From positions 1 through 49,148 of the IMG/VR virus record IMGVR_UViG_3300020406_000006: DNA of 49,148 nucleotides. One strand, written 5' to 3'. This stretch comes from a virus. Shown here in pieces: positions 6,530-42,446 of the stretch (positions are counted from its first letter, which is position 1; every line of letters begins with the position of its first letter). Made by a program: the position numbers and the translations under genes. The notes below the pieces were generated by a model that was not told the DNA's origin, made no database searches, and saw only the letters and a program-made list of their open reading frames with translations.

Positions 6530-9043
6530 ATGGCAATACCTAATAGGATAACAGTTGACCTAGACAGAGCTGGCAAACTAGAAAGCGAAATAGAAAAGAA
6601 ATTACAAAGTGGTCAGTCCATTGGAAGTGTCATGGACGAATCACTCGCAGTCGTAAAAAATGAAATTTTTCAAGCAGAGGAACTAGGCGGATCAGCAACA
6701 ATAGATGTTGATACACTTGGAGATGGTACAACAAGCTCTTACACTGGAGCAACTTCTACACCTAATAAAGTAGTTGCCAAACAAGGCACAGACGAAGTAG
6801 TGCTTGATGACATAGATTATAACAACACATTTAGCAGAACACGTGATCACAAGGTTGACTCAATACACGAGATAGAAAATGTTTTAGAAAAATACAGATC
6901 ATTTAATACCATATGGTCAATGTTTTGTCTTACTCCGGAAGAGATGGCTGATCCAGACAACACCTACATGACCAGTGAACCACAAACTGTTTTAATCAAA
7001 GGTGCTGGTGGTATACAAAATTACCAAAGTGAAAGGCGACCTAAAACAAGATTAGAAAGACAAGGCGGCAAGGTTGAATATTACATAGAAAATGTAAGTA
7101 TCAAATCAATCATAGGATCAAGTGGTCCAACAAGGATGCCTCCAGTACACAATTTTAATTTTACAGTCAAAGAACCATACAGCATGGGGCAGTTTCTTGA
7201 ACTTTTACAGATAGCGGCCATGCAGGCAGGATATGAAAGTTATATTGGTTCACCTTTTTGTTTGATGTGTGAATTTATTGGACACACAGACAAAGATAAA
7301 ACAGAAAGGGCTGGCAAAAGATTCTTTCCTATTCTTTTAAGTCAATCAAACATGACTGTTGATGCGGGAGGTTGTGTGTATGAGATACCAGCCATATCAA
7401 CATCAATGGGAACAAATGGTGATAGTGTACAAACAATTAAACAAGATATCACTATAATAGGTGGAACAGTTGAAGAAGCACTACAAAGTGGATCACAAAG
7501 TTTAACCAGAGTCATTAATAGTGCATTACTAGACAGAGAATCAAAAGAAGAAACTACTTTCTCAGATGAATACATTATATTATTTCCTAAATCCAAGGAT
7601 TTATCAAGTAGAAAATTCAAGGGAGAACAACAAGGAGACACTGAATCTTCAGCAACTTATGATCCTGAAAAAGAATATGCTTCAAGATATGGAGAAACAA
7701 CTAGTGTAAGGCAGGTTGATTATGAGACATGGGTCAAAAACGTAACAGGATTTGCTGTAAAGAGATCCAAGACTTCAGATGCACTCAAGGCCAATTCTTT
7801 GAAACAAGAAAACATAAATCAAATTGGACAAGGAAAATTGCTAACAGACAAGCTAGGCAAGGGTGGCATACGTCCTGGAAATTATTATGCAAGTTATGAC
7901 AAAGAAAAAAATGTTTTTGAACAAGGTGCAATAAGCATTCCTCAAGACAAGAGAGCATTCAAGTTTGAAAAAGGAACTAAAGTAAATCAGATAATTGAAG
8001 AGATGGTTGTAGCCAGTGAATGGGCCAAGGGTGTAACTGACAGAGCAACTGATCCTGAAGGCTTTAGAGATTGGTTCACAATACAAAGCAAGATGTTTTT
8101 TGTGCCTGTCAAAGACACAGCAGTTAAAAAAGGAAGAATGCCACGCATTTATGTTTTCCAAGTAATTCCTTTCAAGGTACACAGTTCAATTTGGCAGGCG
8201 CCAACTGATGTAGCAAAAGGCACCAAAGAAATATATAGAAAAGTTTCCAAGATATACAATTATCTTTACACAGGAAGAAACAAAAATGTTTTAGAATTTG
8301 ACATAAGATATAACACAAGATTTTTAACAAACGTTCCGCTTACCAAAGGTAAAGACACACCACAGCAACAAGAAAAGGGCGGTGATGGAGTAACAAGTAA
8401 CTACAACCCCAATGAACAAAACATAGATCAAAAAGAAGGTAAGAAGGAAGAAGAAAGATTATATCCTATTAAAAACGTACAGGACAGTGACATACAAGTG
8501 ATCACTTCAGGTATGCGTGGTACAGATGCCAGCACAAAGGATATCATTGCAAGAGAGTTTCACCAAGCATTGATCAATTCAAATGTTGACTTGGTAAGAT
8601 GTAGATTAAAGATCATGGGAGATCCTTGGTTTTTGTCTGACAGTGGCATGGGTAATTATCAATCAGAAAGCAGTCCTATCATCTTTAACACAAAAGATAG
8701 AACCATGGATTATGTAAGAGGGTTTGTGTACATAGTGGTTAATTTTAGAACACCTTACGATTACAGCAATAGAGGATTGCTTGAGGGCGGAATGGTTGGA
8801 AACGCATCGCTCAAAGTTCCACAGTTCAGTGGCTTGTATAGGGTAACTAAAGTAGAGCATGATTTTAGTGAAGGCCAGTTTACACAGGTGCTTGAAATAC
8901 TTAGACAAACAAATCAAGAAGGTATTGATACTAAACAAAAATCAGATTCAGCTCAGGACATAGGTGGAACAACAAAACAAGAAGATGAAAGCAAAAAACA
9001 AGGAGCACCAGCTGAAAATAATGAAACATCGAGTTACACATAA
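6530..9043 (+). CDS. Baseplate hub-like structural protein, 837 aa
   Basis: This large protein lies between gp53 and gp5, where a hub protein that holds gp5 is expected. Residues about 580-605 (IYNYLYTGRNKNVLEFDIRY) resemble a segment of gp27-type hub proteins. The C-terminal region near 760-790 (SGLYRVTKVEHDFSEGQFTQ) looks like the end of a tail-hub domain of the late-control family. The N-terminal 120 residues and last 40 residues are polar and probably disordered. No enzyme motif is seen. It is coupled to gp5 by a TAATG overlap. Assigning it as the gp27 equivalent is inference from order and these two segments. A conserved marine-phage virion protein without a T4 counterpart is the alternative. 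Confidence 0.6.
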   Translation: MAIPNRITVDLDRAGKLESEIEKKLQSGQSIGSVMDESLAVVKNEIFQAEELGGSATIDVDTLGDGTTSSYTGATSTPNKVVAKQGTDEVVLDDIDYNNTFSRTRDHKVDSIHEIENVLEKYRSFNTIWSMFCLTPEEMADPDNTYMTSEPQTVLIKGAGGIQNYQSERRPKTRLERQGGKVEYYIENVSIKSIIGSSGPTRMPPVHNFNFTVKEPYSMGQFLELLQIAAMQAGYESYIGSPFCLMCEFIGHTDKDKTERAGKRFFPILLSQSNMTVDAGGCVYEIPAISTSMGTNGDSVQTIKQDITIIGGTVEEALQSGSQSLTRVINSALLDRESKEETTFSDEYIILFPKSKDLSSRKFKGEQQGDTESSATYDPEKEYASRYGETTSVRQVDYETWVKNVTGFAVKRSKTSDALKANSLKQENINQIGQGKLLTDKLGKGGIRPGNYYASYDKEKNVFEQGAISIPQDKRAFKFEKGTKVNQIIEEMVVASEWAKGVTDRATDPEGFRDWFTIQSKMFFVPVKDTAVKKGRMPRIYVFQVIPFKVHSSIWQAPTDVAKGTKEIYRKVSKIYNYLYTGRNKNVLEFDIRYNTRFLTNVPLTKGKDTPQQQEKGGDGVTSNYNPNEQNIDQKEGKKEEERLYPIKNVQDSDIQVITSGMRGTDASTKDIIAREFHQALINSNVDLVRCRLKIMGDPWFLSDSGMGNYQSESSPIIFNTKDRTMDYVRGFVYIVVNFRTPYDYSNRGLLEGGMVGNASLKVPQFSGLYRVTKVEHDFSEGQFTQVLEILRQTNQEGIDTKQKSDSAQDIGGTTKQEDESKKQGAPAENNETSSYT

Positions 9044-10608
9044 TGAGTGATCTTCCACAAAAGAATACCAACATAGATAGAAACTCCAAGCACACAGCCG
9101 TGGTTGCAAAACCAGGACCGTATGAAGCAAGAGTCATAAACAATCTTGATCCTGAATACCAAGGAGCTCTCACTGTACAGCTTTTAAAAACCAACACCAG
9201 TGGTAACGTCAACTTTGCAGAAGGTCAAGTTTACATTGCCAGATATCTTTCACCCTTTGCAGGACAGACTCCAATATGGGGAAACACCAAGAACGATGGA
9301 TACAAGGAAGGACAACAAAGTTATGGTATGTGGTTTGTACCACCAGATGTAGGCACAAAGGTATTGGTTATATTTGCGGAAGGTAATCCTAATCTGTGTT
9401 ACTGGTTGGGTTGTGTCAATGACAAGTTCATGAACCATTCCATTCCGGATCATGCGGCATCAACTTTTACAACTGACGGTACACCAGACGATCTCAAAGG
9501 TAAAAAGTTACCAGTCACTGAATACAACAAACAGATTGAAACTGCGGCAGGCATTGATCCTACAAAATTTAAAAAGCCATATCAAAAATTAATCACTGAC
9601 ATACTGCAAGGACAGGGCTTGTTGGAAGATGAAACACGTGGTATAACAACATCAAGTGCAAGAAGAGAAGTTCCAAGTGCGGTGTTTGGCATTTCAACTC
9701 CAGGACCTGTTGACAAGACCAGCGGCTCACCAAAGGTAAGGGTTGGTACAAATGAAAACTTCAACAACATATTCAAAGCAAGACTGGGTGGCACGTCATT
9801 GACTTTTGATGACGGTAATGATAAATTTTTAAGAAAGAAATCTCCAAGTGAAGAATCACCAGACTATGCAAATGTAAACGTTGGTGAAACTGATGGTGAT
9901 GTAACAAGACCACACAACGAATTGGTGCGTTTGCGTACACGTACAGGACATCAAATACTTTTACACAACACAGAAGATCTCATATACTTGGGCAACAGCA
10001 GAGGAACTGCTTGGATTGAATTAAGTTCAGATGGCAAGATTGATATATTTGCAGAAGACTCAATCAGTATGCACACCAAGAATGATTTCAATTTAACAGC
10101 AGACAGAAACTTCACAATAGAAGCTGGAGCAAATTTAAGTTTGAAAGCATCTGGTGATTATGTTGGAGACAAGATCCTCAAAGGAAGGGTACAGATAGAA
10201 TCCAACAAGAACACAAACATATTGGTAGGAGGTAGCACAAAGATCACAACAACTTCAGACTTTGATGTTAACACAGGCGGAGCAAACAAATTAACAGCAG
10301 GATCCACAACTGATATACTCAGCGGAGGCAACCATACAGAAACCGCTTCCGAAATCCATATGAATGGACCGCAGGCGGCTACGGCCGCTGTCGCGTCCGC
10401 TCTGTCTACGCACCGCGTACCGGGTCATACGACCTACGGTATTCTTTCACAACGTTCTCCACAAGCTGAACCTTGGACACATCACGAGAACTTGAACCCA
10501 TTAGCATTTAAAGTTGCTGTAACTGATAGAGATTTGGTCACAACAGTGGCAAATCCGTTACCAACACCAACTACTCCAGATGTATTCAAGAAGGAGTTTA
10601 AAGCATAG
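9043..10608 (+). CDS. 5: gp5-like central spike/hub protein without lysozyme domain
   Basis: The N-terminal 15-130 form the OB-fold of gp5/VgrG proteins (GPYEARVINNLDPEYQGALT, then VPPDVGTKVLVIFAEGNPN and the YWLGCV strand). Residues about 290-430 have the short-period polar repeats of a beta-helix spike (LTADRNFTIEAGANLSLKAS). T4 gp5 has a lysozyme domain between these parts. Here that stretch has no recognisable lysozyme catalytic segment, so the spike should puncture without digesting peptidoglycan, as I recall for other marine T4-like phages. Residues about 426-466 are encoded by a stretch of very different base composition (see 10321-10440), although the protein there (IHMNGPQAATAAV, then EPWTHHENLNP) looks like normal gp5 C-terminus. 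The stop lies 12 bases before gp25. Confidence 0.85.
   Translation: MSDLPQKNTNIDRNSKHTAVVAKPGPYEARVINNLDPEYQGALTVQLLKTNTSGNVNFAEGQVYIARYLSPFAGQTPIWGNTKNDGYKEGQQSYGMWFVPPDVGTKVLVIFAEGNPNLCYWLGCVNDKFMNHSIPDHAASTFTTDGTPDDLKGKKLPVTEYNKQIETAAGIDPTKFKKPYQKLITDILQGQGLLEDETRGITTSSARREVPSAVFGISTPGPVDKTSGSPKVRVGTNENFNNIFKARLGGTSLTFDDGNDKFLRKKSPSEESPDYANVNVGETDGDVTRPHNELVRLRTRTGHQILLHNTEDLIYLGNSRGTAWIELSSDGKIDIFAEDSISMHTKNDFNLTADRNFTIEAGANLSLKASGDYVGDKILKGRVQIESNKNTNILVGGSTKITTTSDFDVNTGGANKLTAGSTTDILSGGNHTETASEIHMNGPQAATAAVASALSTHRVPGHTTYGILSQRSPQAEPWTHHENLNPLAFKVAVTDRDLVTTVANPLPTPTTPDVFKKEFKA
10321..10440 (+). other. GC-rich hairpin-forming element inside the gp5 gene
   Basis: Bases 10381-10440 are about 67% G+C (my hand count) in a gene otherwise strongly AT-biased. 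On the plus strand GCGGC-TACG-GCCGC (10375-10388) forms a stem with a C(UACG)G tetraloop, extendable to CAG/CTG with one bulge. ACCGGGTC-ATAC-GACC-TA-CGGT (10419-10440) forms an 8-bp stem with a 2-base bulge. TACGC-ACC-GCGTA (10407-10419) and AGCGG/CCGCT (10321-10347) can also pair. The UNCG-type loop arises only on the plus strand, in the mRNA. It could be an internal RNA element, a translation pause or a recombination scar. Confidence 0.6.
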
Positions 10609-14000: not shown

Positions 14001-14654
14001 CCATTGCCACCAAGCAGTGATAACTTGTTTAATAACTATGGATCTTCAATCAACAAAATTAAATCAATCAGTGATGATGTAATTTATCATCCTGTAAAAT
14101 ACAAAATATTATTTGGAGCAAAAGCAGATGCTCGATTACAGGCAAGTATAAAAATTGTTAAAAACCCAGACCAAGTTGTTAATGACAATGACATTAAAGC
14201 AAGAGTTGTATCTGCAATGAATCAATACTTTGCTTTAGAAAATTGGGATTTTGGTGATACTTTTCATTTCTCAGAGATGGCTACGTATGTAATGAACAAA
14301 ACAGCGCCTGATCTTGTAAATCTTGTAATTGTTCCAAATCAAGAAAGTCAAGCATTTGGAAGTTTATACGAGATTAAATCAGAAGCAGACGAAATCTTTA
14401 TAAGTGCGGCAACAGTAGATGACATAGCAATCATTGATGCCATTACAGCAAGTAAACTTAAAGCGTCAGGCAATGTAGTTACAACAACTACTAGTGCTAC
14501 AACAGGCGTAACAAGTGGTGCAACTTATACATCTGGCACAGTTTCAAGTTCATACAGCAATTCAAGTTCTACAAGTTCTAGTTCTTCAAGTTCAAGTTCA
14601 AGTTCAAGTTCTTCTAGTTCAGGTGGTGGCGGATCCTCTGGGAGTGGGTACTAA
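11100..14654 (+). CDS. 6: gp6-like baseplate wedge protein, long form
   Basis: gp6 forms the ring that holds the baseplate wedges together. The N-terminus (residues 10-110, LLLAEDWKKVYQSFRNAEF then SSEYLALIDLIAFLGQNISY) and the conserved block near 425-480 (QNRMVTGEDYQVSPLSISQ, then RTSSGISRYYDLLDATGKY) align in type with T4 gp6. The C-terminal wedge region is near 970-1100 (YHPVKYKILFGAKADARLQA). At 1184 aa it is nearly twice T4 gp6 (660). The extra length is mainly an insertion at about 490-960 with beta-rich segments and one Asp-rich stretch (VTFFDSDDDGVVDDPETF near 810). The last 40 residues are a Ser/Gly tail. The stop overlaps the start of the giant gene (TAATG). Confidence 0.9.
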   Translation: MSSTNRQNRLLLAEDWKKVYQSFRNAEFKSYDFDNLRRTMINYLRQNYPEDFNDYIESSEYLALIDLIAFLGQNISYRIDLNARENFLELAERRESILRLARLLSYNPKRNQTANGLLKFESIATSEDIVDSNGTNLSNQTVLWNDPANSNWREQFEKVLNSALPSNSIVGKPIKSDTVEGVPTFQYRFDASNSDVPVYTFSKNVDGKNMQFQVVSTDVESGVISEEAPLPGNSLGFLYRDDGRGPGSSNSGYFVHFRQGVLDTGTFQIDAPSTNQSVGLEATNINNTDIWLYKLNSIGTEDQLWTKVDSVEGNNIVYNSLRKSVRNIYGVLSKTQDKVDLIFSDGTFGNLPQGAFRTYYRTSLNDQYNIVPSDLVSISVNIPYTSKAGNSETISLTLELKYTVDNSTVSESNASIRENAPATYYTQNRMVTGEDYQVSPLSISQEIIKVKSVNRTSSGISRYYDLLDATGKYSSTNLYGADGVLYKDSFTEKTSFTFVTKTDIQGTIANTVTPLLSKKSMVNYFLTNFPKTLVADLGAKWSQTSNKTNMSTGKFVDSNSTALQVGSFTASALKYIEAGTLIKFTAPTGYHFMADNSHKLMVGAADHKNSVTYKWMKVVSVVGDGTTDNADGTGPIILNDIMDSNAILSELKPKFSKTLLADVQSQMTDQIFAYKTFGLRYDSALRQWRMITENNLDISSAFSTGKTGDVTDQQLDSSWLLLFETDGEKYTITTRGQRYIFESNEEIRFYYDSTQKIYDNRTGQIIKDKIKVLNINTQPDSTSPFNVDYPWEISAEYRDGDGYIDSKKVEVTFFDSDDDGVVDDPETFVTLIDETTNALTKYVFLKKYTTSDGIEDYKYMDNSTGTVIIKQNESFVGALSQYTDGQVFYLVTEGVFKIYSSASASIVLTTDYRAYIGRDGLKFHYIHSADDDSRIDPSSSNIVDTYLLTRTYDTNFRQYLDGVIETLPLPPSSDNLFNNYGSSINKIKSISDDVIYHPVKYKILFGAKADARLQASIKIVKNPDQVVNDNDIKARVVSAMNQYFALENWDFGDTFHFSEMATYVMNKTAPDLVNLVIVPNQESQAFGSLYEIKSEADEIFISAATVDDIAIIDAITASKLKASGNVVTTTTSATTGVTSGATYTSGTVSSSYSNSSSTSSSSSSSSSSSSSSSSGGGGSSGSGY
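14562..14650 (+). repeat. AGTTCN hexamer repeat encoding a poly-Ser tail
   Basis: Near-perfect 6-base units (AGTTCA, AGTTCT) encode about 20 serines, followed by GGGGSSGSGY, at the very end of gp6. The unit is two codons long, so slippage would change tail length without shifting frame. Confidence 0.85.
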
Positions 14655-17600
14655 TGGCCTATAATGCAAACCAAGAAGAATATCCATTACCGGCAGGAGA
14701 TCAAGACAAAGCTCAGCACACAAGAACTAGTGCGGAGCACTTACCTAAATATTTTAGAACTGCACATAACAAAAAGTTCTTAAGTGCAACACTTGATCAA
14801 TTATTAAATCCTGGCGTTGCAGAAAAAATAAGTGCATATTATGGTAGAAGGATAGCAACTGCCCGTAAGGCAAATGATACCTATGTCACTGATGTAACAG
14901 CTGAAAGAGAAGAATATCAATTTGAACCAGCAACTGTAATTAAAGATAATTTAAACAATGTAACTTTTTACAAAGATTACAATGATTTGAAAAATCAAAT
15001 AAAAGCATTCAACGGTACAGTTGATGATGACAGCAAAGCATTTAGACAAGAATATTATGCTTGGAATCCTCATATCGATTGGGACAAATTTACAAACTTT
15101 AGAGATTACTACTGGTTACCAAACGGTCCTTTATCTATTCCTGTTGTAGGACAAGCAAGAGGAATCACTAGCACATACACAGTCACAAGCATTGACAATC
15201 TAGACAACAAAGCATACGTTTTTACTCCTGATGGAAAAACAAATAATCCTACACTAAAACTTTACAGAGGACAGACATACAGATTTGAAGTTAATACTCC
15301 TGGAATGCCTTTGAGCTTTAGAACTGCTAGAACTTTAGATAACGACTATCTATACAGTTCAGGCATAAGCGATAGCACACATACAACTGATGTAGGTACA
15401 ATAGAATTTACAGTTGATTTACTTGCACCAGACACTTTATATTATGTAAACAACAATGATATAAATGCAAGTGGACTTATACAAATTTATGATGTGTTAG
15501 AAAACACAGCCATAGATGTTGAAGCAGAAATATTAGGTAAGAAAACTTACAAGATGACCAATGGCTACGAAATGTCAAATGGTATGAAAGTTGATTTCCA
15601 AGGATCAGTGACCCCTACAAAATATGCTGAAGGCAACTGGTATGTAGAAGGTGTAGGAGATGAAATAAAACTTATACCTGAACAAGATGTTATGATACCT
15701 GGAACATATTCAACAACCAGAGCAAACCCTTTTGATTCGGAAGGATTTGATAGAAGCCCATTTAGTACTGCAAGTGCTTATGCAGATGCACACGACTACA
15801 TTGTTCAGAATAGATCAGCTACAAGCAGAAGTCCATGGTCAAGATACAATAAATGGTTCCATAAAAGTGTACTAGAAACTATTGCAACAATACTTGACGA
15901 ACCAGCAGACATAAATCAAACAGGTAGAGCCGCTAGACCTATTATTGAATTTGATCCACAGTTAAAACTATATGGTTTTGGGACACAGGCAAAAGATGAC
16001 GTTGAGTTATTAGACACATTTACAACTGATGTGTTCAGCACAATAGAAGGTGCAATAGGTTACAACATTGACGGAGTTGATGTTGGTGACAATATGAGAA
16101 TATTGTTTACAGCAGATCCTGACACAAGAGTAGCAGGTAAAATTTTTAAAGTAAAATTTATTACACACAACAACGTTAGACAAATTAGTTTAATTGAAGA
16201 AACAGACACAACACCTTTAGAAAATGAATGTGTACTTGTACAACAAGGAGACACTTACAAAGGTAAGATGTGGTATTACAATGGAACTAAATGGGTAGCT
16301 GGACAGGACAAAACATCAGTTAACCAGAGTCCAACTTTTGATCTATATGACGTAAATGGAAATGATTTCAAAGATGCAACAACTTATCCAAGTTCTACTT
16401 TTACTGGTACAAAACTTTTTAGTTATAAAAAAGGAACAGGAGCCAATGATAATATTTTAGGCTTTCCTCTTTCTTATAGAGCATTAGTAAACACAGGAGA
16501 TATTGTATTTGACTTTAATCTTCTAACAGATAGTTTTACATACCAACAAATGAATGCAACATTTTCTTTGAAAACAGATGTAGGACTATTAAGAAGATAT
16601 ACAGACAGAACAACATTTACATACGCATCTGGTTGGACAAAAGGATACGAAGATAGCAAACAGCTTGTACGTAGGCAGTATGTTGTTAATACACAGCTCA
16701 ATGACTTTGCCATTGACGTTTATAATAGAAGTGGCGATATAAATGATTTATGGGCAAGAGTATACGTTAATAATAAAGCAAAATCTAGTGGAGTTGATTA
16801 CACAATCAATAGACTCAACGGAATTGCTTATGTAAGATTTGTAAATGATTTAGCAGTTGACGACATCTTAGTGATAAAAACAAAAAGTGGTACAGTCAAG
16901 AATACAAATGGTGTTTATGAAATTGCAGGAAATTTAGAACGTAATCCTTTGAATGATAACATAGGAAGTTTTACTTTAGGTGAAGTAAATGATCATGTAT
17001 CTAGCATTGTTGAAATGCGTGATGATTTTGCAGGAGTATTTCCAGGTACAGGAAACCTAAGAGACCTTGGAAACTTATCTGCATACGGAACAAAATTTAT
17101 TCAATCAAGTGGACCATTTAATTTAGCAAATTATCATGTCACAAGCAAAGATGCAAACATTGTGCATTCATTAAGATTTGCAAGAAAAGAATATGGTAAA
17201 TTTAGAAAGCTATTTTTACAAACTGCAACTGGTTTAGGATTTGACGGAGCAACAAAAATACACTTCGACAAAGTGATGGAACACTTAAACAAAAATAAAA
17301 CAAATGATATGCCATTCTATTTCAGTGATATGATTGGTTACGGAACGTTTAAAAAATCTACACACGTTGTTGAAAATACATCTACTGAATATTATGCTTT
17401 GGCAACAAATTTTGATTTAACAGCTTTATCAAATAGAGCTGTGGGCATTTACATCAACGGAGTACAGTTGATACATGGCACTGATTACAAATTTGAATCC
17501 GCTTACGCAGGCTTTGTTACAATTACAAAAACAAAAGTTATTAATGATGTAATTGAAATATATGAATATGAAAATACCGATGGTAGTTATATTCCACCTA

Positions 17601-20600
17601 CTCCTACTAAACTAGGATTGTATCCTAAATTTAAGCCAGAGATTTTTACAGACAACACTTACCAAACTCCTACAAAAGTTATACAAGGTCATGACGGAAG
17701 TATCTTTGTTGCTTATAATGACTTTAGAGATGAATTGCTTTTAGAACTTGAAAAAAGAATTTATAATAATATTAAAGTACAATATGATGTTGACATAATA
17801 AACATACACGACTTTATTGGAGGAGAATCAAGAGATACTGGGTTTACTAGAAGTGCCAGAGACAAAGCATTACTATCTGACTTTGTTGAATGGAACAGAG
17901 CAGTTGGTGATCCTGATTATACTGACTTTTCATTTTGGTCAAGAACAAACAGTTTTACTTTCAATTATAAAAATACCAGTTCGCCCACACAAAAAACTAA
18001 TCCGGGATACTGGAGAGCAGTATATAAAGAAGCATATGATACTGATCGTCCACATAGTCATCCTTGGGAAATATTAGGGTACAGCGAAGAACCAACTTGG
18101 TGGCAAACGGTTTATGGTGCGGCTCCTTATACAAGTGAAAACAAGATACTTTGGCAAGATATTGAAAAGGGTGCATATAGAATACCTAACGTGCCTGTTG
18201 TATACAATGAAAAATATGCAAGACCTAATATTACAAAACACATTCCTGTTGATGACGGTGGTAATTTATTAAGTCCTTTAGATTCTAACTATGCTAAGAA
18301 TTATATTAGTAACAGAACACAAGAACCTTTTGTGTTTGGTGATCAAGCACCAACTGAAAATGCTTGGCGTAGAAGTTCAGAATATCCTTTTAGTTTAGTT
18401 AATGCTTGGATATTAAACCAGCCTACAAAAATAATAGGATTGGGTTTTGATAGATCAAGATTACAAAGGAATTTAGCAAAAGAAGTAATCTACACAGTCA
18501 CTAGTAAAAGATTAAGATTAAAAGACATAGTATTTCCTAATACAACATCAGATACAACTCGTGTGCAAACAGCAGGACTTGTAAACTATGTTGCTGAGTA
18601 TATGAACAGCAAGACTGTAAAATATTACAACAAGTATCAAGATGATTTGAAAAACATTACAAACCAATTAGGATTAAAAATAGGTGGCTTTACAGACAAA
18701 GCTAAATTTAAACTCATACTAGATAGTAGAACTCCTTACAATGAAGGGAATGTATTTGTTCCCGAAGAAAACTATCAAGTATTTTTAAACAAGAGTAGTG
18801 TAGTTGATCTTGTACCATACAGTGGTGTAATAGTTGAGAAGGTCGCAAGTGGATTTATTATAAAAGGATACGATTACGATAATCCTTACTTTAAATATGT
18901 AACACCAATTGAACTTGCTGACGATCCGTTGATAAGTGTTGGCGGAGTAAGTGAAGACTTTGTGCAGTGGACATCTGGACAGACTTATTCACCAGGATTT
19001 ATTGTAAAATTTGCAGACGAGTTTTACATGACACAAACTTTACATACTGCTGGAGATAGTTTTGAACAAGCAAACTTTGTAAGATTAGCAGAACTTCCTG
19101 TAAAAGGAGGTAGACAAGCATATTTCAGACGCCAATGGAATGAAGGAATTAATCAAGAACCTACTGAACTTGCATATGGTACACAAATTAAAACTATACA
19201 AGGCGTTGTTGACTTCTTGTTAGGATATGAAAAATATTTAAAATCACAAGGATTTATCTTTGAAAATTACAACAAAGAAATTAATGAAGTAGAAGATTGG
19301 TCTTTAAGTGCAAGAGAATTTATGTTTTGGACTACACAAAATTGGCAAGCCAATAGTGTTATCACTTTAAGTCCAGGAGCAATTGATTTACAATTTTACA
19401 GAAAGCATCATGTTGCTGACAACCTGTTTGATAACTTTTATGGTTACAACTTGTTTAAAGCAGACGGTAAAAAACTATTACAAGCCAATGTAAATGTTTA
19501 CAGAGATAACGACAACAACTTAGGTATTTCAACAAAGAATACAACAGATGGGATATTTGCTGTAAAGATACCTTTGGTACAAATTGAACACGTTTGTTTG
19601 ATAGATAACAGAACAGTATTCAGTGATTACATTTATGATTTAGAGCCTGGATATAGACAAGAACGTATCAAGGTGTTAGGTTACAGAACCGACGGTTGGA
19701 CAGGCGGATTAAACATTCCTGGATTTGTTTATGATGACGTAAACATAGGTGAATGGGAATCATGGAAAGATTATGCCATTGGTGACACAGTAAAATACAA
19801 AGAATTTTATTATGTTGCAAAACAAAAAATATCAGGCAAAGAAGTATTTACTGATTTAGATTGGCAAAGACTAAATGGAGCACCACAGTCTGGATTGAAA
19901 GCAAACTTAGATTATAAAGCAAAACAATTTGCAGACTTTTATGATCTTGACACAGATAATTTTGATACTGATCAACAAAGGGTTGCACAACATTTAATTG
20001 GATATCAAAAAAGAAAATATTTAGAAAACATTATCAATGATGATGTAAGTCAATACAAGTTCTATCAAGGATTTATCCAGGACAAAGGAACACTCAACAG
20101 TTTAACTAAATTGTTTGATGCATTATCTAATACTGAAAATGATAGTGTAAACTTTTATGAAGAATGGGCAGTGAGACTAGGACAGTTAGGATCCTCGCAA
20201 TCATTTGAAGAAGTTGAATATAAACTTGATGAAAGTAGATTTAGATTAAGTCCACAACCAATTGAGTTGGTACAAACAGTCACAGGCGACGAAACAGATT
20301 TAATTTATAGACAGCGACCATTTGAAACTTATTTAAAACCAGATGGTTATGACCATACACCGTTTCCAACCAAGTACAAAGACGATGATTATGTAGAAAC
20401 TGCTGGTTATGTAAATTCAGCTGATGTAAAACAAACTGTTGCCAAGTATGACGATATTTTAAATTTAACTCTCACAACTTTAAATGTAGGAGATTATATA
20501 TGGACTGGTACAAGTAAAACAGATAACTGGGACGTTCTTAAATATGTTAGAACAAATGATAAGGTTATCAAAGTTACTAAAAATGGAACTACAAACGAAG

Positions 20601-23600
20601 TTGAAATACAACTTAACAACCAAGCCAATTACACAAAAGATGATATCATAGGTATAGTTGATGTTGCAGATACTGAAAAGTTTTTCAAGGTATTAAGATC
20701 AGAACTTGACACAATATTTTGTACAGACAACGGAACAACAGCAGACGTTGATCCTGCAAATGGATTTGTCACAGCATTTACTTCAGCAAGGGTTTCAAAC
20801 TTAGAAGAAGCAAACACAAGATTGTTTGCAGGTGAATTCCAAGTAGGCGAGTTGCTTTGGGTAGACAATGACAGTACGAATCGTTGGATTGTTTTAAGAA
20901 ATACTCCACAACACAGTGAGTTACAGGTTATTAGTAATGTTGAAACCGGAGATGCAAGTACAAACTTCGGAAAAGTAATTGGTGCTGATGATAGAAACAC
21001 AACACTTGTTGTAGGTGCTAGTGAATCGAACAAGGTATACATATTCCAAAGAACAAATGATAATACTACCTATAACCATGCACAAACAATTGATGCTCCA
21101 ACAGGCTTATACACCGGTGACGGTAAGTTTGGTACAGGATTAGATTTAAGTTCAGATGCTAAATGGCTTGTAATTGGAGCACCTAATGCCAGCACAGCAA
21201 AAACAAAATTCAAAGGTGCGTTTGCAAGTAATGTAAGTTATGTAGAAAAAGATATTATACAGTACCAAGAAAACTTCTGGGAGGCACAGTTTCCTATATC
21301 AGCGGCACAAGGTACACTTACATTTAACAGCTTCTATGATCCTACGCAATTAGCAAAAGCGTCATGGACAGGTACAGCTTATCCAGAGATTGTTTATGCA
21401 ATTAGAGGAAACTACAATTTTAATCTTCCTACTGATCATATATTAGTCAGGGCACCTACCACACAGTATGAAGGATCAGCAGTTGGTGATACTTTAGTAT
21501 TCAACTGGAAACAATATTCACAGAATTATCCTAATGGTGTTTTACCTTTTGGTGCATCAGGACCTGCAATAAGCGAACTTGAAGGCAACAAAGTTATACA
21601 AGCAAAAGTTGATGCAGTATTATATTTTGATAATCTTTTAAGAACTCCACAGGTAGGAGATTTAATAAGCACAGGTTCAGCTATTGGAACTGTAAATGCA
21701 ATTAGTGTTCAGAATGTAAACCAAGCAAACATTTACATCAGCAATATGAATGGACAATTTTTAGCAAGTGATACTGCAACACTAGGCGGTGTATCAATGG
21801 GAACTTACACATTAATACAGCCAGTCAATTCACAGGCATCATTTGGTGGTTGGTGGAAAATTGATGTTACAACATCTTTCAACACAACAGTTAAATCTAT
21901 TATTGCACCACAGTTTGTAATACAAGATATTATTACTCAAAACGAAAGCAAGTCTGCAGAAATTTATTACAATACTATGGACGATGCTTATGCGTTGAAT
22001 CAAGTTACTGATCCAACCAAAGGCGGAAGATTAGGACATTTAAGTTTCTACAATAAACAAGGACAGTCAGACATGAGTCCATTCTGGTTCTTCAGAGGAC
22101 CTAAGGCTTGGACGGATACACTTAATACAAGTAATACATTTACAATGAGGGTGAACGAAATCAGAGGCGGAGCAGGATTAACATTATTTGACCCAGGCAC
22201 ACTTGGACTTTCTTTTACATATTTGAATGATACCTTACATACTGTTTATGATATATGGGACGGTTTCGTAGATGTTACATTTACAAATTTTGACAATGCC
22301 GGTAATCCTTTTATTCCACAAGTAGGCGACATCATAGTTGATCAACAATCAGGAGCAACTGCCACAGTTGCATACTTGCAAGAACAATTATTAGATTGTA
22401 GATTGTATGTAAAAAATAGAAGCGGGTCATTTAAATTTGGTAATTTACATAGTGATACAAGCACCATTGCAATCAAAGATGGTGTAAGTGCAGGAGTTGA
22501 TAGACTTTCAGGTAGACTAGACAATGCAAATATGTCTGGAAGTATTGCAGGTAAACTTGTGGTTGTTAAAAACACAGATAGTACAATGTTGCCTGTAACT
22601 TCACCAACTTTTAGAGATGAATTAGAAATTTACATTTACAACGATAGAACAGTTAACGGAGTTGCAAGAACACCTAATACTCCAAATCCTTTGAACAAAG
22701 ATTGGGCACAGGTATCTGCATTAAAATTAGATACCACTGGAACTGCAAGTTCATTTACAAATGAAGGAGCATATTTTGTTTACGAAAGAATGGGCACAGG
22801 ATTATACAGTTTCCAACATGGTTACACAAATCCTCAAAGAGAATCAAACAGATTCTTAGGAACCATTATAAAACTTACGAAATCTAATCAAAGCGAATTA
22901 TATAGATTGTTTGTTTCTGCTCCAGGAAATAACACAACAAGTAACAGTGGCAGAATACATTTAATTACACACGGAATAGATACAGACGGTACAACATATG
23001 ACTGGGCAAGAAGTAAAAACTATTACTTCAAGGGTGAATTCAGTGACTCAATTGATTACTACACAAATGATATTGTGTTGTACAATGGTGCATTTTATGA
23101 AGCGAAAACAAACTTAACAGCAGGTGCTTGGAATGTAACTTACTGGACACTCATAGATGCTTTCATTGATTACATAGGATATCTTCCAAATGATACAAAT
23201 TTAGCTGTTACTGATGACAGTACATTTGAAAAAACAAATTTAACAAATTATGCACACCCATTTGCAGTTGCAAAATTTGGTGATGTAATTGCAACAGTGG
23301 CTGACTTTGATAACAGTGATCCTAAAATTATAATTTACAGATTTATTAGAGGACATTATGGATTCTCACAAATGATTCCTGCACCAAAGAATGGCATAGG
23401 ATTTGGTTCAAGTGTTGCTGTAAGCGATGACGGTTCAATGATTGCCGTTGGCGCTCCTTTGGCAGATGATAGAGCAAATGACAATGGTAAAGTTTTTGTA
23501 TACACTAACGACCTAGGAACATTTTCATTAACACAAACATTGTACAGTCCGGAAATAGATGTTGCTGAAAGATTTGGTGCCGCTATTGATTTCAATGGCA

Positions 23601-26600
23601 ATGATTTAGTTGTAAGTTCTAAAGGTGGAGACCTTGTTACAAGCACTACATTTGATACAATAACTACAACGTTTGATAATAACTTAACACAATTTGAAAA
23701 AGTAAACAGTGATAGCGGACAGGTGTTTATGTATCAACAGGTTAAAAACAAACTATTATATGCAGAAAAATTTAATTACAAAAATCCTGCAACTGAAAGA
23801 TTTGGAGAATTTTTATTATTCAATGAAAACCATGTGTATGTACCTATGCCAGAACTTTCAATCACAGATGACAACTTCATAGGTACTTTAATTGATTTCA
23901 AGAGAACACGTGGCATTATGCCTTGGGCAACTTTACATAGTCCATTGGATCAAGTTGATCTAACAAAATTCAAAGGTGTGTTCATATATAACATTTCAGA
24001 AAATCCTGTTGCAAGAGCAATAGATTATATTGATCCTATTCAAGGAAAGATAGCAGGTGCGGCAGAAGAAGAATTAACATTTAAAACGCATTATGATCCA
24101 GCTGTATACACAAACGGAACAGCATCACCAACGACTGTTATTGACCCAGAAAACTATTGGAATGACAAATGGGTTGGTAGATTATGGTGGGATCTAAGCA
24201 CAGCTAAATTTGTTAATCCTTACCAAGGCAATATTATCTACAATACTGCAAACTGGAATAAATTATTTACAGGAGCATCAATAGATGTTTACGAATGGGT
24301 AGAAACAACCATTACTCCAACTCAGTGGGCCGCACAGGCAGATACTGAAGAAGGACTTACAAAAGGAATAAGTGGTACTCCTAAGGATACTACAACATTT
24401 GTTCAGGTACAAAAATTTGATAATGTTGCAAAAAGTTTCTTTAACAAATATTATTATTGGGTAAAAAATACAAAAATTATTCCACAAGTAACATTTAGAA
24501 AAACTTCAGCCTATGACGTTGCCCAACTAATACAAGATCCAGCAGGACAAGGACAAAGATTTGTTGCACTTTACTCTAATGCTAGGTTTGGTTTATACAA
24601 CTGTGAAACACTTGTAAATGGACCTGACAATGCAATCAACTTTAGATATTGGACTATTGATAACAAAGAAATTAATACGCACAATCAATATCAGTTAATT
24701 ACTGAAGGCCTGGATACAAGTAGACCAAACAAAGATTTAGAACGTAAATGGTATGACAGCTTAATTGGTGTTGATACAAATGAAAGACCGGTACCTGATA
24801 CAATATTAAGTCCTAAACAAGCATACGGTATATTAGATAGACCAAGACAAAGTATGTTTAAAAATAAAACTGAGGCTTTAAAACAAACTATTGAAAGAGC
24901 TAACAGAGTTTTATTACAAAATTTAATTGTTGATGAATATAACCTAACACAATTTTTAAGCAAAGACCCAACACCTACTTTGTTAAGTAGAAAGTTTGAT
25001 AAAGCAATAGATACCTATGCTGAAATAGGCCTTGTAGGAGTTTCAAATGTTATTCCAGCAGTACTTACTCCAGTATTTGTAAACGGAAAACTTACAAGAG
25101 TTGATATTACTAACGGTGGTAAAGGTTACATAACAGTTCCAACATATGAGTTTGGTAACGTTGGTAATGGAAGTAATGCAGAAATAACGTTGGCCATGGA
25201 TGCTAATGGAACAATAACAAGTGCAACTGTTAAGAATGAAGGACAAGACTATGGTCCAAACACAACACTGGAAGTTAGAAAATATAGTGTATTGGTTAGA
25301 ACTGATGAGAGTGTAAATTCAAGATGGTCAATATACGCATATCAGAGTGTGTCAAAAACTTGGGCAAGGACAACTAGTTCAGCCTATGATGTTACACAAT
25401 GGTGGAGTTATACTGACTGGTATGATGTAGGATATAGCGAATTTACTGAAACTGATTACCTGATAGACTTCTCATATGAACTTGATTCATTGACTGATCA
25501 GGTAGGTGACATCGTTAAGATTTCAACTATAGGCGCAGGTGGTTGGTTACTGTTAGAAAAAATTAGTAATGATGGTTCTGATTACACAACGAAATACAAA
25601 ACTATTGGTAGAGAAAATGGAACTATTAGATTAAGCAATAGCTTATACGATAGTGCAAACAGTAACATAGGTTATGACGGTTTAAGTTATGATACTTCAT
25701 TCTACGACAATCAACCTACTAGAGAATTAAGAATTATCTTACAATCATTAAGAGATGATATTTTCATTAATGATCTAGCTGTTGAATATAACAAAATGTT
25801 TTTTGCAAGTGTTAGATATGCTTTCTCAGAACAAGCAAACGTTGATTGGGCATTTAAAACAAGTTTCATAAAAGCAAAACACAATGCAGGAGATTTACAA
25901 CAAAAAGTAACTTTCCAAAATGATAGTTTACCAAGTTATGAGGATTTTGTTAAAGAAACAAAACCATACAAAACAAAAATAAGAGAATATGTCAGTAACT
26001 ACACCAAGACTGAATTAACAAACAGTGGAGTAAGTGACTTTGATATTCCGCCAGCATACAGCATTAATGATGGTAAGATAGTTCCTGCAAGTCTTAAAGT
26101 TAATAATGATTTAATTGTAGGTCAAGATGCTTCTATTACAACTTACCCTAACAAATATTGGGCTGACAATGTTGGATTTGAAGTATTAAGAGTAAACATT
26201 AAAAATGGTGGTACACTATATTTAGAAACTCCTTTGGTCAAATTTGTTGGCGGAGGAGGCACTGGTGCAACAGCAAAAGCAACACTTGGTACCAATGGCA
26301 CAATAAAATACATTACAGTTACAAATCCTGGAAGAGGATATCTTTCTGCTCCTACCGTAAACATTGAAGGTACACAAGATTCAGCTGGTGTTCCGGCAGT
26401 GGTATCAGCACAACTTGGAAACAGCAAAGTTAGATCAAATCATATTGTAAGCAAATTTGATAGAGTCACAGGCACTTTTTTAATTACAACTTTAACAGAA
26501 ACAGAAAACTTTACTGGCACAGGAACGCAAACTATTTTTGATCTTAAGTTTCCTATGGATTTAAGAACAACAACAATTAATGTTACAGTTGCTGGAATAG

Positions 26601-39276: not shown

Positions 39277-40166
39277 AACTAAACATAGCAGAACAAGATA
39301 TTATATTTTTAAGTTACGATGAGCCTAACTGTGAAAAAAATTATGTTGACCTTGTATCTAAATGCCCATGGGCTAAAAGAGTGCATGGTGTAGAAGGATC
39401 TGATGCGGCACATAAGGCCTGTGCTGAATTATCAGAAACTAAACATTTTGTTACAGTAGATGGTGATACGATTATTGATCCTAATTTTTTAAATGTTGTT
39501 TTAGATTTAGAGGAAATGGGAGTGGATGATGATTTCCAGTTTAGTTGGTGTGGTAAAATAAACATAAATGGACTAAAATACGGTAACGGCAGTTTAAAAA
39601 TGTGGACAAAAGATTTTGTTAAAAATATGAAAACACATGAAAACACAGATGGCAGTGACGATACGCAAATAGAATTTTGTTACTTTGATAATTATTATCA
39701 AATGAATGACAACTTTAGTGAAAGTATTATTAACGCAACACCGCATCAAGCCTGGAGAGCAGGATTTAGAGAAGGTGTAAAGATGTCTTTGAATAGAGGA
39801 GCAAAAGTTCAAGACGTTGCAAATGAAACATGGTGGCAAAATTATCATAGATTGTTGATATGGATGAATGTTGGTATGGACATAACAAATGGTGAGTACG
39901 CAATACTTGGAGCAAGAGAAGGTTGTTACAAGGTGTTAGGCACTGATTGGGATCACAGTCAAACCAGAGACTTTACAATACTAAACAAGCTATGGGAAGA
40001 AAAATGTTTTAAGGAATCTCCGGCAATAGAACGCATTACGCATCTTGGACAAAAATTACAAGAGCTAGAATTACCTATTAGCAAACAACCACTTGATGAT
40101 AAGCAAAGTGAGTTTTTCAAAACGGTTTACATCAACACCGAAAGGGTGCTTGGTAGAAAGTTTTAA
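39273..40166 (+). CDS. Glycosyltransferase-like protein (GT2-type N-terminus), 297 aa
   Basis: The N-terminal part has an IIFLSYDEPNCEKNY strand, WAKRVHGVEGSDAAHKAC (33-50) and a DGD motif at 63-65 (HFVTVDGDTIIDPNF), as in GT-A transferases where this motif binds the metal-sugar complex. It then has a GNGSLKMWTKDFV block near 104. Its first 110 residues are clearly paralogous to the protein at 47866-48549. The remainder is Trp/Asn-rich and helical, ending in a leucine-rich segment. The stop overlaps the following radical SAM gene (TAATG). Confidence 0.72.
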   Translation: MKLNIAEQDIIFLSYDEPNCEKNYVDLVSKCPWAKRVHGVEGSDAAHKACAELSETKHFVTVDGDTIIDPNFLNVVLDLEEMGVDDDFQFSWCGKININGLKYGNGSLKMWTKDFVKNMKTHENTDGSDDTQIEFCYFDNYYQMNDNFSESIINATPHQAWRAGFREGVKMSLNRGAKVQDVANETWWQNYHRLLIWMNVGMDITNGEYAILGAREGCYKVLGTDWDHSQTRDFTILNKLWEEKCFKESPAIERITHLGQKLQELELPISKQPLDDKQSEFFKTVYINTERVLGRKF

Positions 40167-41545
40167 TGAGTGAACTAGATAAAATTAAACAGTTGATGCC
40201 TTTTATCGAAGATCAAACTTCGAAAACATTCTGTTTGGCCAAATGGCATCACACAACAATTTATCTTGCAACAGGTGAAACGCATAGTTGTTATCATCCT
40301 GCTCCGCACAAAATACCTTTAGAAGAACTTAAAAATAATCCAAGTGCGTTGCACAACACAATAGAAAAGAAAGCACAACGTAAGATGATGCTTGACGGTC
40401 ATAAGCCAGACGGTTGTAGCTATTGTTGGAACATAGAATCAATGGGTAAAGACTTTGTAAGTGATAGACACATAAAAACAACAAGCATTTACACAGAAGA
40501 AAGATTAGAAGAAATAAAAACAAAAGCCGCAGACTTTAATGTTAATCCAGAATACATTGAGATAAGTTTTAGTAACGAATGCAATTTTAAATGCGGATAT
40601 TGTCACCCCAAAGCATCTAGTAGGTATTGGAATGAAATAAAACAACACGGACCTTACTCAAAATCAACTGTCCATAGACAAGACATTGATTGGTTTAAGG
40701 TATATGCAAAGGAAGAAGAAAATCCTTACGTAGATGCATGGTGGGAATGGTGGCCAGAAGTAAGCAAAACTTTAAATATTTTACGTATCACTGGCGGTGA
40801 ACCTTTGATGCACAAAAGTTTATGGGAATTGTTTGATAGATTAGACAAAGATCCCAAGCCTCACTTACAAATAGAAGTGAACAGTAACATGGGTGTTAAG
40901 CCTAAACTGGTACAAAAGTTAACTGATACTGTTAAGAATTTAAAGAAAGATGGCAAAATTCGAAGTTTTAAATTGTACACTAGCATTGATACTTGGGGAC
41001 CTAAGGCTGAATATGCCAGAACAGGGTTGGATATTGCTTTGTGGGAAAAGAATCTTGATTACTATCTAAGCAATACAGGTTGGCCAGTAACGTTTATGAT
41101 TACATTTAATATTTTTAGTGTCACAAGTTTTCATTTGTTATTGGAAAAGATACTTGAATGGAGACGCAAGTATAACAGTGATAATAACAGCACTCAATGG
41201 CAACGCATAAGATTTGACACACCTCATTTAAAGGAACCAACTATATATGACATGAACATACTGCCAAAGGAAAAGTTTATGCCATTCATGTATAAGCATT
41301 TAAAATTTATGGAGGCACATCAGGATGATGCTGACAGAACAAAATTTAGTTCATTGGAAGTAGAAAAATTTAGGCGTGTTGTTGTTTATATGGCATCAAC
41401 ACATTACGAGCCATTGAAGTTAGAACAAGCACACAAAGACTTTTATAATTGGTTTACTGAATTTGATAAACGTAGGAATTGTAGTTTGCCTAACACCTTT
41501 CCCGAACTTAAAGGATTTTATGATGATTGTTCCAAAATGGTATAA
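40166..41545 (+). CDS. Radical SAM protein with N-terminal twitch-like domain, 459 aa
   Basis: The CX3CX2C cluster site is C139-N-F-K-C143-G-Y-C146, with the SAM-binding GGEP at 210-213 (LRITGGEPLMH). Before the barrel are cysteines at 23, 42, 84 and 87 (FCLAKWHHTTIYL, CSYCWNIE) arranged like the twitch domain of twitch-domain radical SAM proteins, which may hold a second Fe-S cluster. Such enzymes often modify peptides, but others act on sugars and cofactors. The gene sits between a glycosyltransferase and an SGNH protein and overlaps both. The substrate is unknown. Confidence 0.88.
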   Translation: MSELDKIKQLMPFIEDQTSKTFCLAKWHHTTIYLATGETHSCYHPAPHKIPLEELKNNPSALHNTIEKKAQRKMMLDGHKPDGCSYCWNIESMGKDFVSDRHIKTTSIYTEERLEEIKTKAADFNVNPEYIEISFSNECNFKCGYCHPKASSRYWNEIKQHGPYSKSTVHRQDIDWFKVYAKEEENPYVDAWWEWWPEVSKTLNILRITGGEPLMHKSLWELFDRLDKDPKPHLQIEVNSNMGVKPKLVQKLTDTVKNLKKDGKIRSFKLYTSIDTWGPKAEYARTGLDIALWEKNLDYYLSNTGWPVTFMITFNIFSVTSFHLLLEKILEWRRKYNSDNNSTQWQRIRFDTPHLKEPTIYDMNILPKEKFMPFMYKHLKFMEAHQDDADRTKFSSLEVEKFRRVVVYMASTHYEPLKLEQAHKDFYNWFTEFDKRRNCSLPNTFPELKGFYDDCSKMV

Positions 41546-42446
41546 GTTTACACCACATCATAGTCATAAGGACGGATTGTTTGTTGACTGTAGAAAAATT
41601 GTAGTTAATCATCACAATATACGACCTCCACACATAAACCCAAATGTACAGAACACGGAGTTCTGGATCAAACGTAAAAAGCAAACTTGCACAGTGGTAC
41701 TAGGAGAGAGTTGGACCTATGGCGAAAGTTTAATGAATCTTGTTTCATCTAATCAACATAAATTTGATTTGGAAACACAGATTAATCATTGTTGGGGGCC
41801 TACCACAGCAACTTTACTTGATACGGACTATTATCAGTATGCAGTTCCAGGTAACAACAATGTTACTATCTTTGGAGCAGTTGAAAGGATTTTAGAAACT
41901 GTAAGTCCTTTGTATGATACTGTGTATTTGTTGATACAGATGACAGAACCAGCCCGTGAAGAGATCATTGTCAATGAACTGCATGAACAAAAACATCCAC
42001 TTGCAAAACTATACGACCAAGATTATATAAAAGGAATGACAGTAAAGGAATGGTGTGTACAAAACGAAGATATCTTGTTTACCCAGCTTAAAGAAATTGT
42101 CGCAAAGTACAACAATGTTAAAACAACTGCATGGAAAAACTTTTGCACATTACAAAATGAAAAGGATTATAATTTTAAAATTTTAGAAGAAACATGGATT
42201 GAATTTAGTGCAAGGGTCAACGGACACAAAATAAAAAGTCCAGACTTCTATGTCGCAGGATGGTTAAAGAATTTTCTAAAAATATTTCCTGGCATAGAGC
42301 ATACTATGGAATATTTTAATCAACAACTAGATTTAATTGAAGCATCAAACAAGTTTTTAAGTGACTGCCATGAGCATATACCACACCCTGGAGCAGGAGC
42401 ACACAAACTTTGGGGTTACAACATATTTCAACTAATGGACAAGTAA
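41520..42446 (+). CDS. SGNH/GDSL hydrolase-like protein, 308 aa
   Basis: Block I appears as VVLGESWTYGESL (59-71), where the Ser64 in GES is the expected nucleophile. The C-terminus has DCHEHIPHPGAGAHKLWG from about 282, giving the Asp/His of block V. An oxyanion Asn can be proposed in VPGNNNVTIFG near 116. I chose ATG 41520 (or 41523), preceded by AAAGGA, over an upstream TTG at 41463 inside the previous gene. SGNH enzymes remove or move acyl groups on sugars and lipids. Here O-acetyl editing of a glycan is a reasonable guess. It overlaps the upstream radical SAM gene by 26 bases and the next by 1. Confidence 0.7.
   Translation: MMIVPKWYKFTPHHSHKDGLFVDCRKIVVNHHNIRPPHINPNVQNTEFWIKRKKQTCTVVLGESWTYGESLMNLVSSNQHKFDLETQINHCWGPTTATLLDTDYYQYAVPGNNNVTIFGAVERILETVSPLYDTVYLLIQMTEPAREEIIVNELHEQKHPLAKLYDQDYIKGMTVKEWCVQNEDILFTQLKEIVAKYNNVKTTAWKNFCTLQNEKDYNFKILEETWIEFSARVNGHKIKSPDFYVAGWLKNFLKIFPGIEHTMEYFNQQLDLIEASNKFLSDCHEHIPHPGAGAHKLWGYNIFQLMDK

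Follow-up and report, generated by a model that had tools for sequence, protein, structure and literature searches.

A short island of rare, GC-ending codons in the gp5 gene of two related marine phage clades

Why would a phage gene with an ordinary protein product contain a short patch of codons that are rare in the rest of the genome? The question arises from an IMG/VR contig of 49,148 bases with a mean G+C of 35%, the whole of which was analysed and is called the window below. An earlier note on this DNA had described a GC-rich hairpin cluster within the gp5 coding sequence, and had suggested that the nucleotide sequence rather than the protein is under special constraint, or that the patch was imported. 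In two related marine phage clades, gp5 contains a short island of rare codons that end in G or C and are rich in CpG. Silent positions in the island are strongly constrained, its place in gp5 differs by lineage, and the block surrounding it has been exchanged by recombination.

The gene containing the island is located as follows.

9043..10608, plus strand: gp5 gene, baseplate hub / tail needle, 521 amino acids (assigned by PHROG 13211 and gene order)

To the earlier note the encoded protein looked like ordinary gp5. The gene is otherwise an ordinary open frame, and with E 1.8e-53 its product matches PHROG 13211 (baseplate hub subunit and tail lysozyme). The gene order in the window is SbcC/SbcD, gp55-like, gp53, gp5, gp25, gp6 and a gene of 4,907 codons. 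Since the order around gp5 is that found in PA5oct, RaK2, PBECO4 and GAP32, the window phage appears from synteny to be a relative of those jumbo T4-type phages, presumably from a marine source. The 4,907-codon gene is a single open frame in the baseplate region (14654-29377), followed by tail-fibre-like genes; at its place PA5oct and RaK2 have genes of 3,300-3,900 codons. Further along (40166-43621) lie two radical-SAM genes with QueE-like matches, a short distance apart.

The composition of the island is the most visible part of the anomaly.

10363..10440, plus strand: GC-rich, CpG-dense rare-codon island, holding the contig's top GC, GC3, rare-codon and CpG windows

A sharp rise to about 67% G+C over 60 bases had been noted within 10321-10440. 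The rise is real and even stronger, with 73% at 10365-10424, the highest 60-mer of the 49,148 bases (z 6.2), but the GC-rich part begins at about 10363 rather than at 10321. In the codon usage of the window, GCG, ACG, ACC, CCG, GTC, TCC, CTG and CGC each make up 3-6% of their own amino acid, which agrees with the earlier observation that GCG, CCG, CTG and CGC are otherwise rare here. The amino acids account for only half of the GC excess: the 27 codons of the island have 64% G+C against 49% expected for the same amino acids with ordinary codon usage. Likewise, 16 of the 27 third positions are G or C where 5.1 would be expected (GC3 z 5.6), and the GC3 excess in the neighbouring segment at 10342 is the top of 14,581 (z 5.95). 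The 15-codon core of the island is both the most GC3-rich and the rarest-codon stretch among all genes compared. Its codons are rarer than the same amino acids predict (z -7.7 in the window), rarity being scored against the phage's own usage and not against the host tRNA pool. The rare codons are the GC-ending ones, which makes rarity and GC content inseparable here. The CpG content of the islands is consistently but slightly above that of GC-matched synonymous sequences (best P 0.03), and selection specifically on CpG was rejected on this ground. At positions 18-136 the window has a second GC-rich patch (63%) with an apparent antisense Ala/Gly-rich small protein; a GC-rich, Ala-rich tract akin to it recurs in three other contigs (G001, G007 and G020).

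The silent positions of this part of gp5 were compared with those of the rest of the gene, as the earlier note had recommended.

10309..10401, plus strand: block with sharp edges in which synonymous variation is low, covering gp5 codons ~423-453 (silent diversity and exact matches)

In 19 representative gp5 genes, 66-100% identical to that of the window, silent differences at residues 424-453 are 15-20% of the gene average, and none of 5,000 column permutations reached so low a minimum. The claim of a constraint on the nucleotides over and above that on the protein is thus upheld. Relatives with gp5 at 66-80% identity have the same silent bases as the window in codons 425-453. Against three genomes (66-78% gp5 identity) the window shows 0 silent differences where 16.9 are expected, the most extreme of 5,503 segments over the genes compared, and an exact match of 81 bp (10309-10389) is shared with relatives of 78% gp5 identity. 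Variation is low within close groups too: silent differences amount to 0-4% in the island and 5-20% elsewhere in six informative groups, and one diverged pair per group gives, summed, 8 differing codons in the island against ~30 expected from the rest of gp5. The L128-type group, in the far clade, has no such reduction. The 24-mer GGACCGCAGGCGGCTACGGCCGCT is present in 43 IMG/VR contigs, mostly ones already identified through their gp5 match. In the seven outside that set it again lies within gp5, and among 84,980 genomes of bacteria and archaea it has no match.

Third codon positions can also be constrained by a small gene that overlaps gp5, either antisense to it or in a different reading frame. 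In the window, a 43-codon frame (+1) and a 45-codon antisense frame cross the island, both encoding basic peptides.

10291..10428, minus strand: antisense open frame of 45 codons over the island, rejected as a gene (not conserved)

These frames are not kept among the island-bearing relatives, where they shrink to 10-27 codons or vanish. The constraint begins before the ATG of the +1 frame, and Arg-rich peptides follow from GC-rich codons in any case. An overlapping gene is therefore a very improbable explanation and is largely refuted.

The earlier note had described strong plus-strand hairpins, one with a UNCG tetraloop.

10366..10398, plus strand: predicted hairpin with a cUACGg loop at 10380-10383 (fold prediction)
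10323..10351, plus strand: second predicted stem, AGCGGAGG / CCGCTTCC region (fold prediction; the pairing partners vary in relatives and are not kept)

A hairpin with a UACG loop is indeed predicted, but its strength is barely above that of GC-matched synonymous sequences. The 120-nt region folds moderately better than dinucleotide shuffles (z -2.1), and when the 39-nt hairpin is compared with synonymous sequences of matched GC, P is 0.02 for the window and 0.007-0.02 across the near clade, where the stem is invariant. Together with the stability of the 33-nt structure and the identity of its core 24-mer in the 43 contigs, these values would suit a functional RNA hairpin in the gp5 message, such as a terminator, a pause or a protein-binding site. 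Such a role is nonetheless quite improbable. The search for covariation proposed in the earlier note found no compensatory changes in the stem among the carriers, no common fold was found in the far clade or in the L033 contig, and in distant island carriers the fold is not stronger than in synonymous shuffles. An Rfam search gave no match, and a scan gave 0 terminator-like sites. With no covariation, no conservation beyond one clade and little excess over GC-matched sequences, the hairpin cannot be upheld as the object of the constraint, and is probably a by-product of GC content.

What is kept across relatives is the property of the island, not one particular sequence. The comparison set consists of 17 contigs of 12-60 kb each, which are metagenomic fragments from about ten lineages and not 17 independent cases. 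The densest CpG 60-mer lies in gp5 in all 17 (7-11 CpG against a mean of ~0.9-1.4), and the top GC3 window does so in 16 of the 17. The rarest 15-codon window of all conserved genes is in gp5 in 15 of the contigs and ranks second in the other two; the rarity persists after correction for amino acids. The near clade has its island at the window's aligned place, and so do the L113 group and some members of the far clade. The islands follow the residues MNGPQ, LSTHVVPG (G013 and G022) or VATAIAD (G020); those of G013, G022 and G020 are 15-25 codons beyond the place of the MNGP motif. Relatives at ~50% gp5 identity have a different GC-rich stretch with GCTACC repeats, which lies immediately behind MNGPQ, at the place 15-25 codons beyond it or, in some, at both. 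ACCGC/GCGGT was considered as a motif common to the islands, since each of the 13 island sequences contains it; it was rejected, being expected in GC-rich sequence. No island is present in T4, PA5oct, RaK2, PBECO4, GAP32 or Vibrio 2.275.O, or in most other IMG/VR gp5 lineages.

The most informative relative is L033 (77% identity). Its tip amino acids are nearly the same as those of the window, but they are encoded by AT-rich codons with no hairpin. The earlier note had named relatives with free silent variation and no hairpin at this place as evidence against its claim, and at the tip L033 is such a relative. Elsewhere in gp5, however, it has a GC-rich rare-codon island of its own. The patch is sharply bounded and lies at residues 188-207 in L033, L032 and L176 (77% identity), 250 codons from the tip place; all other sequences shown have AT-rich codons at these residues. 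In L226 (G005) this patch occupies 6135-6200. The three contigs L033, L032 and L176 represent one lineage, and L176 ends before the tip, so that the AT-rich tip codons are read in L033 and L032. The relocation suggests that how the DNA or RNA is spelled is under selection, probably for translation speed and not for a hairpin.

Selection on spelling could also concern a control element embedded in the DNA or RNA, for instance a gene-5 origin or a site of antisense transcription. A precedent is found in T4, whose annotation places oriE and the antisense genes repEA and repEB inside gene 5; oriE has iterons and is close to a transcription switch (PMC3016281). The gp5 island is similarly a nucleotide-level element within gene 5 of a T4-type phage near a strand switch, gene 5 of the window being 4 kb from the switch and skew minimum at 5170. 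In addition, the sense strand of most islands is rich in C, and an antisense RNA would therefore be G-rich. The likeness ends there, for oriE is not GC-rich, and neither evenly spaced iterons nor antisense early genes were found at the island. Gene 5 of T4 lacks any GC or CpG island, skew is absent from the island of L033, the antisense frames are not conserved, and a scan found no minus-strand promoter near the island. One plus-strand promoter candidate was considered.

10291..10319, plus strand: sigma70-like match TTAACA-17-TATACT on the left boundary of the low-variation block (7 such matches found, 6.2 expected by chance)

It was rejected, since such matches are no commoner than chance predicts. 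A control element of the oriE kind is improbable on balance. A broader proposal is that gp5 must carry one GC/CpG-rich nucleotide island anywhere along its length, serving something other than the protein (replication start, packaging or message control), and that the island is regained elsewhere in the gene after its loss at the tip; this is unlikely. If the island were a true DNA or RNA element, it would be the second case, after T4 oriE, of a nucleic-acid function in gene 5.

The main rival to selection is that the tracts were imported from a GC-richer relative and spread by recombination, with no function of their own. Exchange between lineages is well documented. Recombination within gp5 is significant (clustering of compatible sites, 0 of 300 permutations), the block alleles occur in all four combinations, L082 has a window-like tract inside an L121-like gene, and in the gp5 tree carriers are intermingled with non-carriers. 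Two contigs whose gp5 is ~50% identical (G001 and G014, L121-type and L129-type) share 65 identical bp that overlap the left part of the block. The L113 group, at 66% identity, has the block in common at ~94% with abrupt edges: between the window and L113, identity is 56-69% before the block, 94% in it and 47% after it. Also in favour of import, GC3 over the entire gp5 is 0.35 in the window lineage, as opposed to 0.24 over the genes compared. Other near-identical tracts of 40-80 bp occur elsewhere in the genomes, which indicates that exchange is general.

As to the suggestion that the patch was imported, exchange between lineages is upheld, but searches of the IMG/VR, phage and genome collections yielded no GC-rich donor; they gave a single unrelated gene on a contig with 64% GC, and otherwise AT-rich homologues or nothing, and a DNA similarity search of the phage collection gave no real match. 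The silent sites of the island are fixed in groups whose other silent sites differ by 5-20%, whereas a single old import would have drifted, which makes a one-time neutral import unlikely. Import also leaves unexplained why the top outlier sits in gp5, at varying places, in nearly every contig. Taken as a whole, spread without function is somewhat unlikely. A sharply bounded, near-identical tract in a conserved gene of diverged phages also resembles the target of a homing endonuclease with co-converted flanks. Unlike such targets, gp5 of the window has baseplate genes as neighbours, with no nuclease gene adjoining. Among the matches listed, half-site searches showed neither an intron or intein in this place nor any copy that was interrupted, and an intron or intein there was rejected on this scope.

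The tentatively preferred explanation is that selection acting on the nucleotides of gp5 maintains the island, whose likeliest role would be that of a translational speed bump. Selection is favoured over functionless, continual gene conversion because the island is the top outlier in gp5 nearly everywhere and reappears elsewhere when the tip patch is lost. The cluster of phage-rare codons would slow ribosomes on the needle gene. The slowing might give one portion of the trimeric beta-helix time for folding or assembly while the remainder is still to be made. Recombination between co-circulating phages could then spread good versions, which would account for the identical tracts. The counts for rarest codons (15/17), GC3 (16/17) and CpG (17/17) support a speed bump, and so do the differing places of the island, its low silent variation within close groups and the absence of tRNA genes from the contig stretches scanned. 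Against it, the exact codons are kept in the window's clade, which rarity alone would not demand; an island 250 codons away, as in L033, fits a position-specific pause badly; and silent variation is not reduced in the L128-type group.

Conserved clusters of rare codons are an established phenomenon (Chaney et al. 2017, PMC5438181). Like those clusters, the gp5 island is a synonymous rare-codon cluster beyond the effect of amino acids and is kept across homologous genes. It differs in outranking, in nearly all contigs, any cluster in the other genes compared, in having its exact codons kept in one clade while the cluster lies elsewhere in other lineages, and in having a codon rarity that is inseparable from GC content. 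Codon-usage landscapes of phages (Lucks et al. 2008, PMC2266997) also show non-random GC3 and codon patterns, but these are long-range, whereas here there is a single island of 60-75 bp in one gene. Selection on silent codons in phage structural genes is rarely so clearly visible. Since the strongest codon anomaly appears repeatedly in one gene at varying places, the persistence of rare-codon clusters can be tested by synonymous swaps.

Elsewhere in the window, 64-66 bp at 45774-45840 are identical to relatives. They lie between divergent open reading frames at 44474-45763 (minus strand) and from 45826 (plus strand), and are probably a shared bidirectional promoter region. Near the start of the contig, a non-coding stretch of ~430 nt (415-845, minus strand) matches no Rfam family, tRNA or tmRNA. 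Its predicted fold greatly exceeds that of shuffled sequences (z -5.6), and 31 of 90 predicted pairs have double-sided compensatory changes. Eight relatives conserve the stretch, including some whose gp5 is only ~50% identical. This stretch is probably an undescribed structured RNA of these phages.
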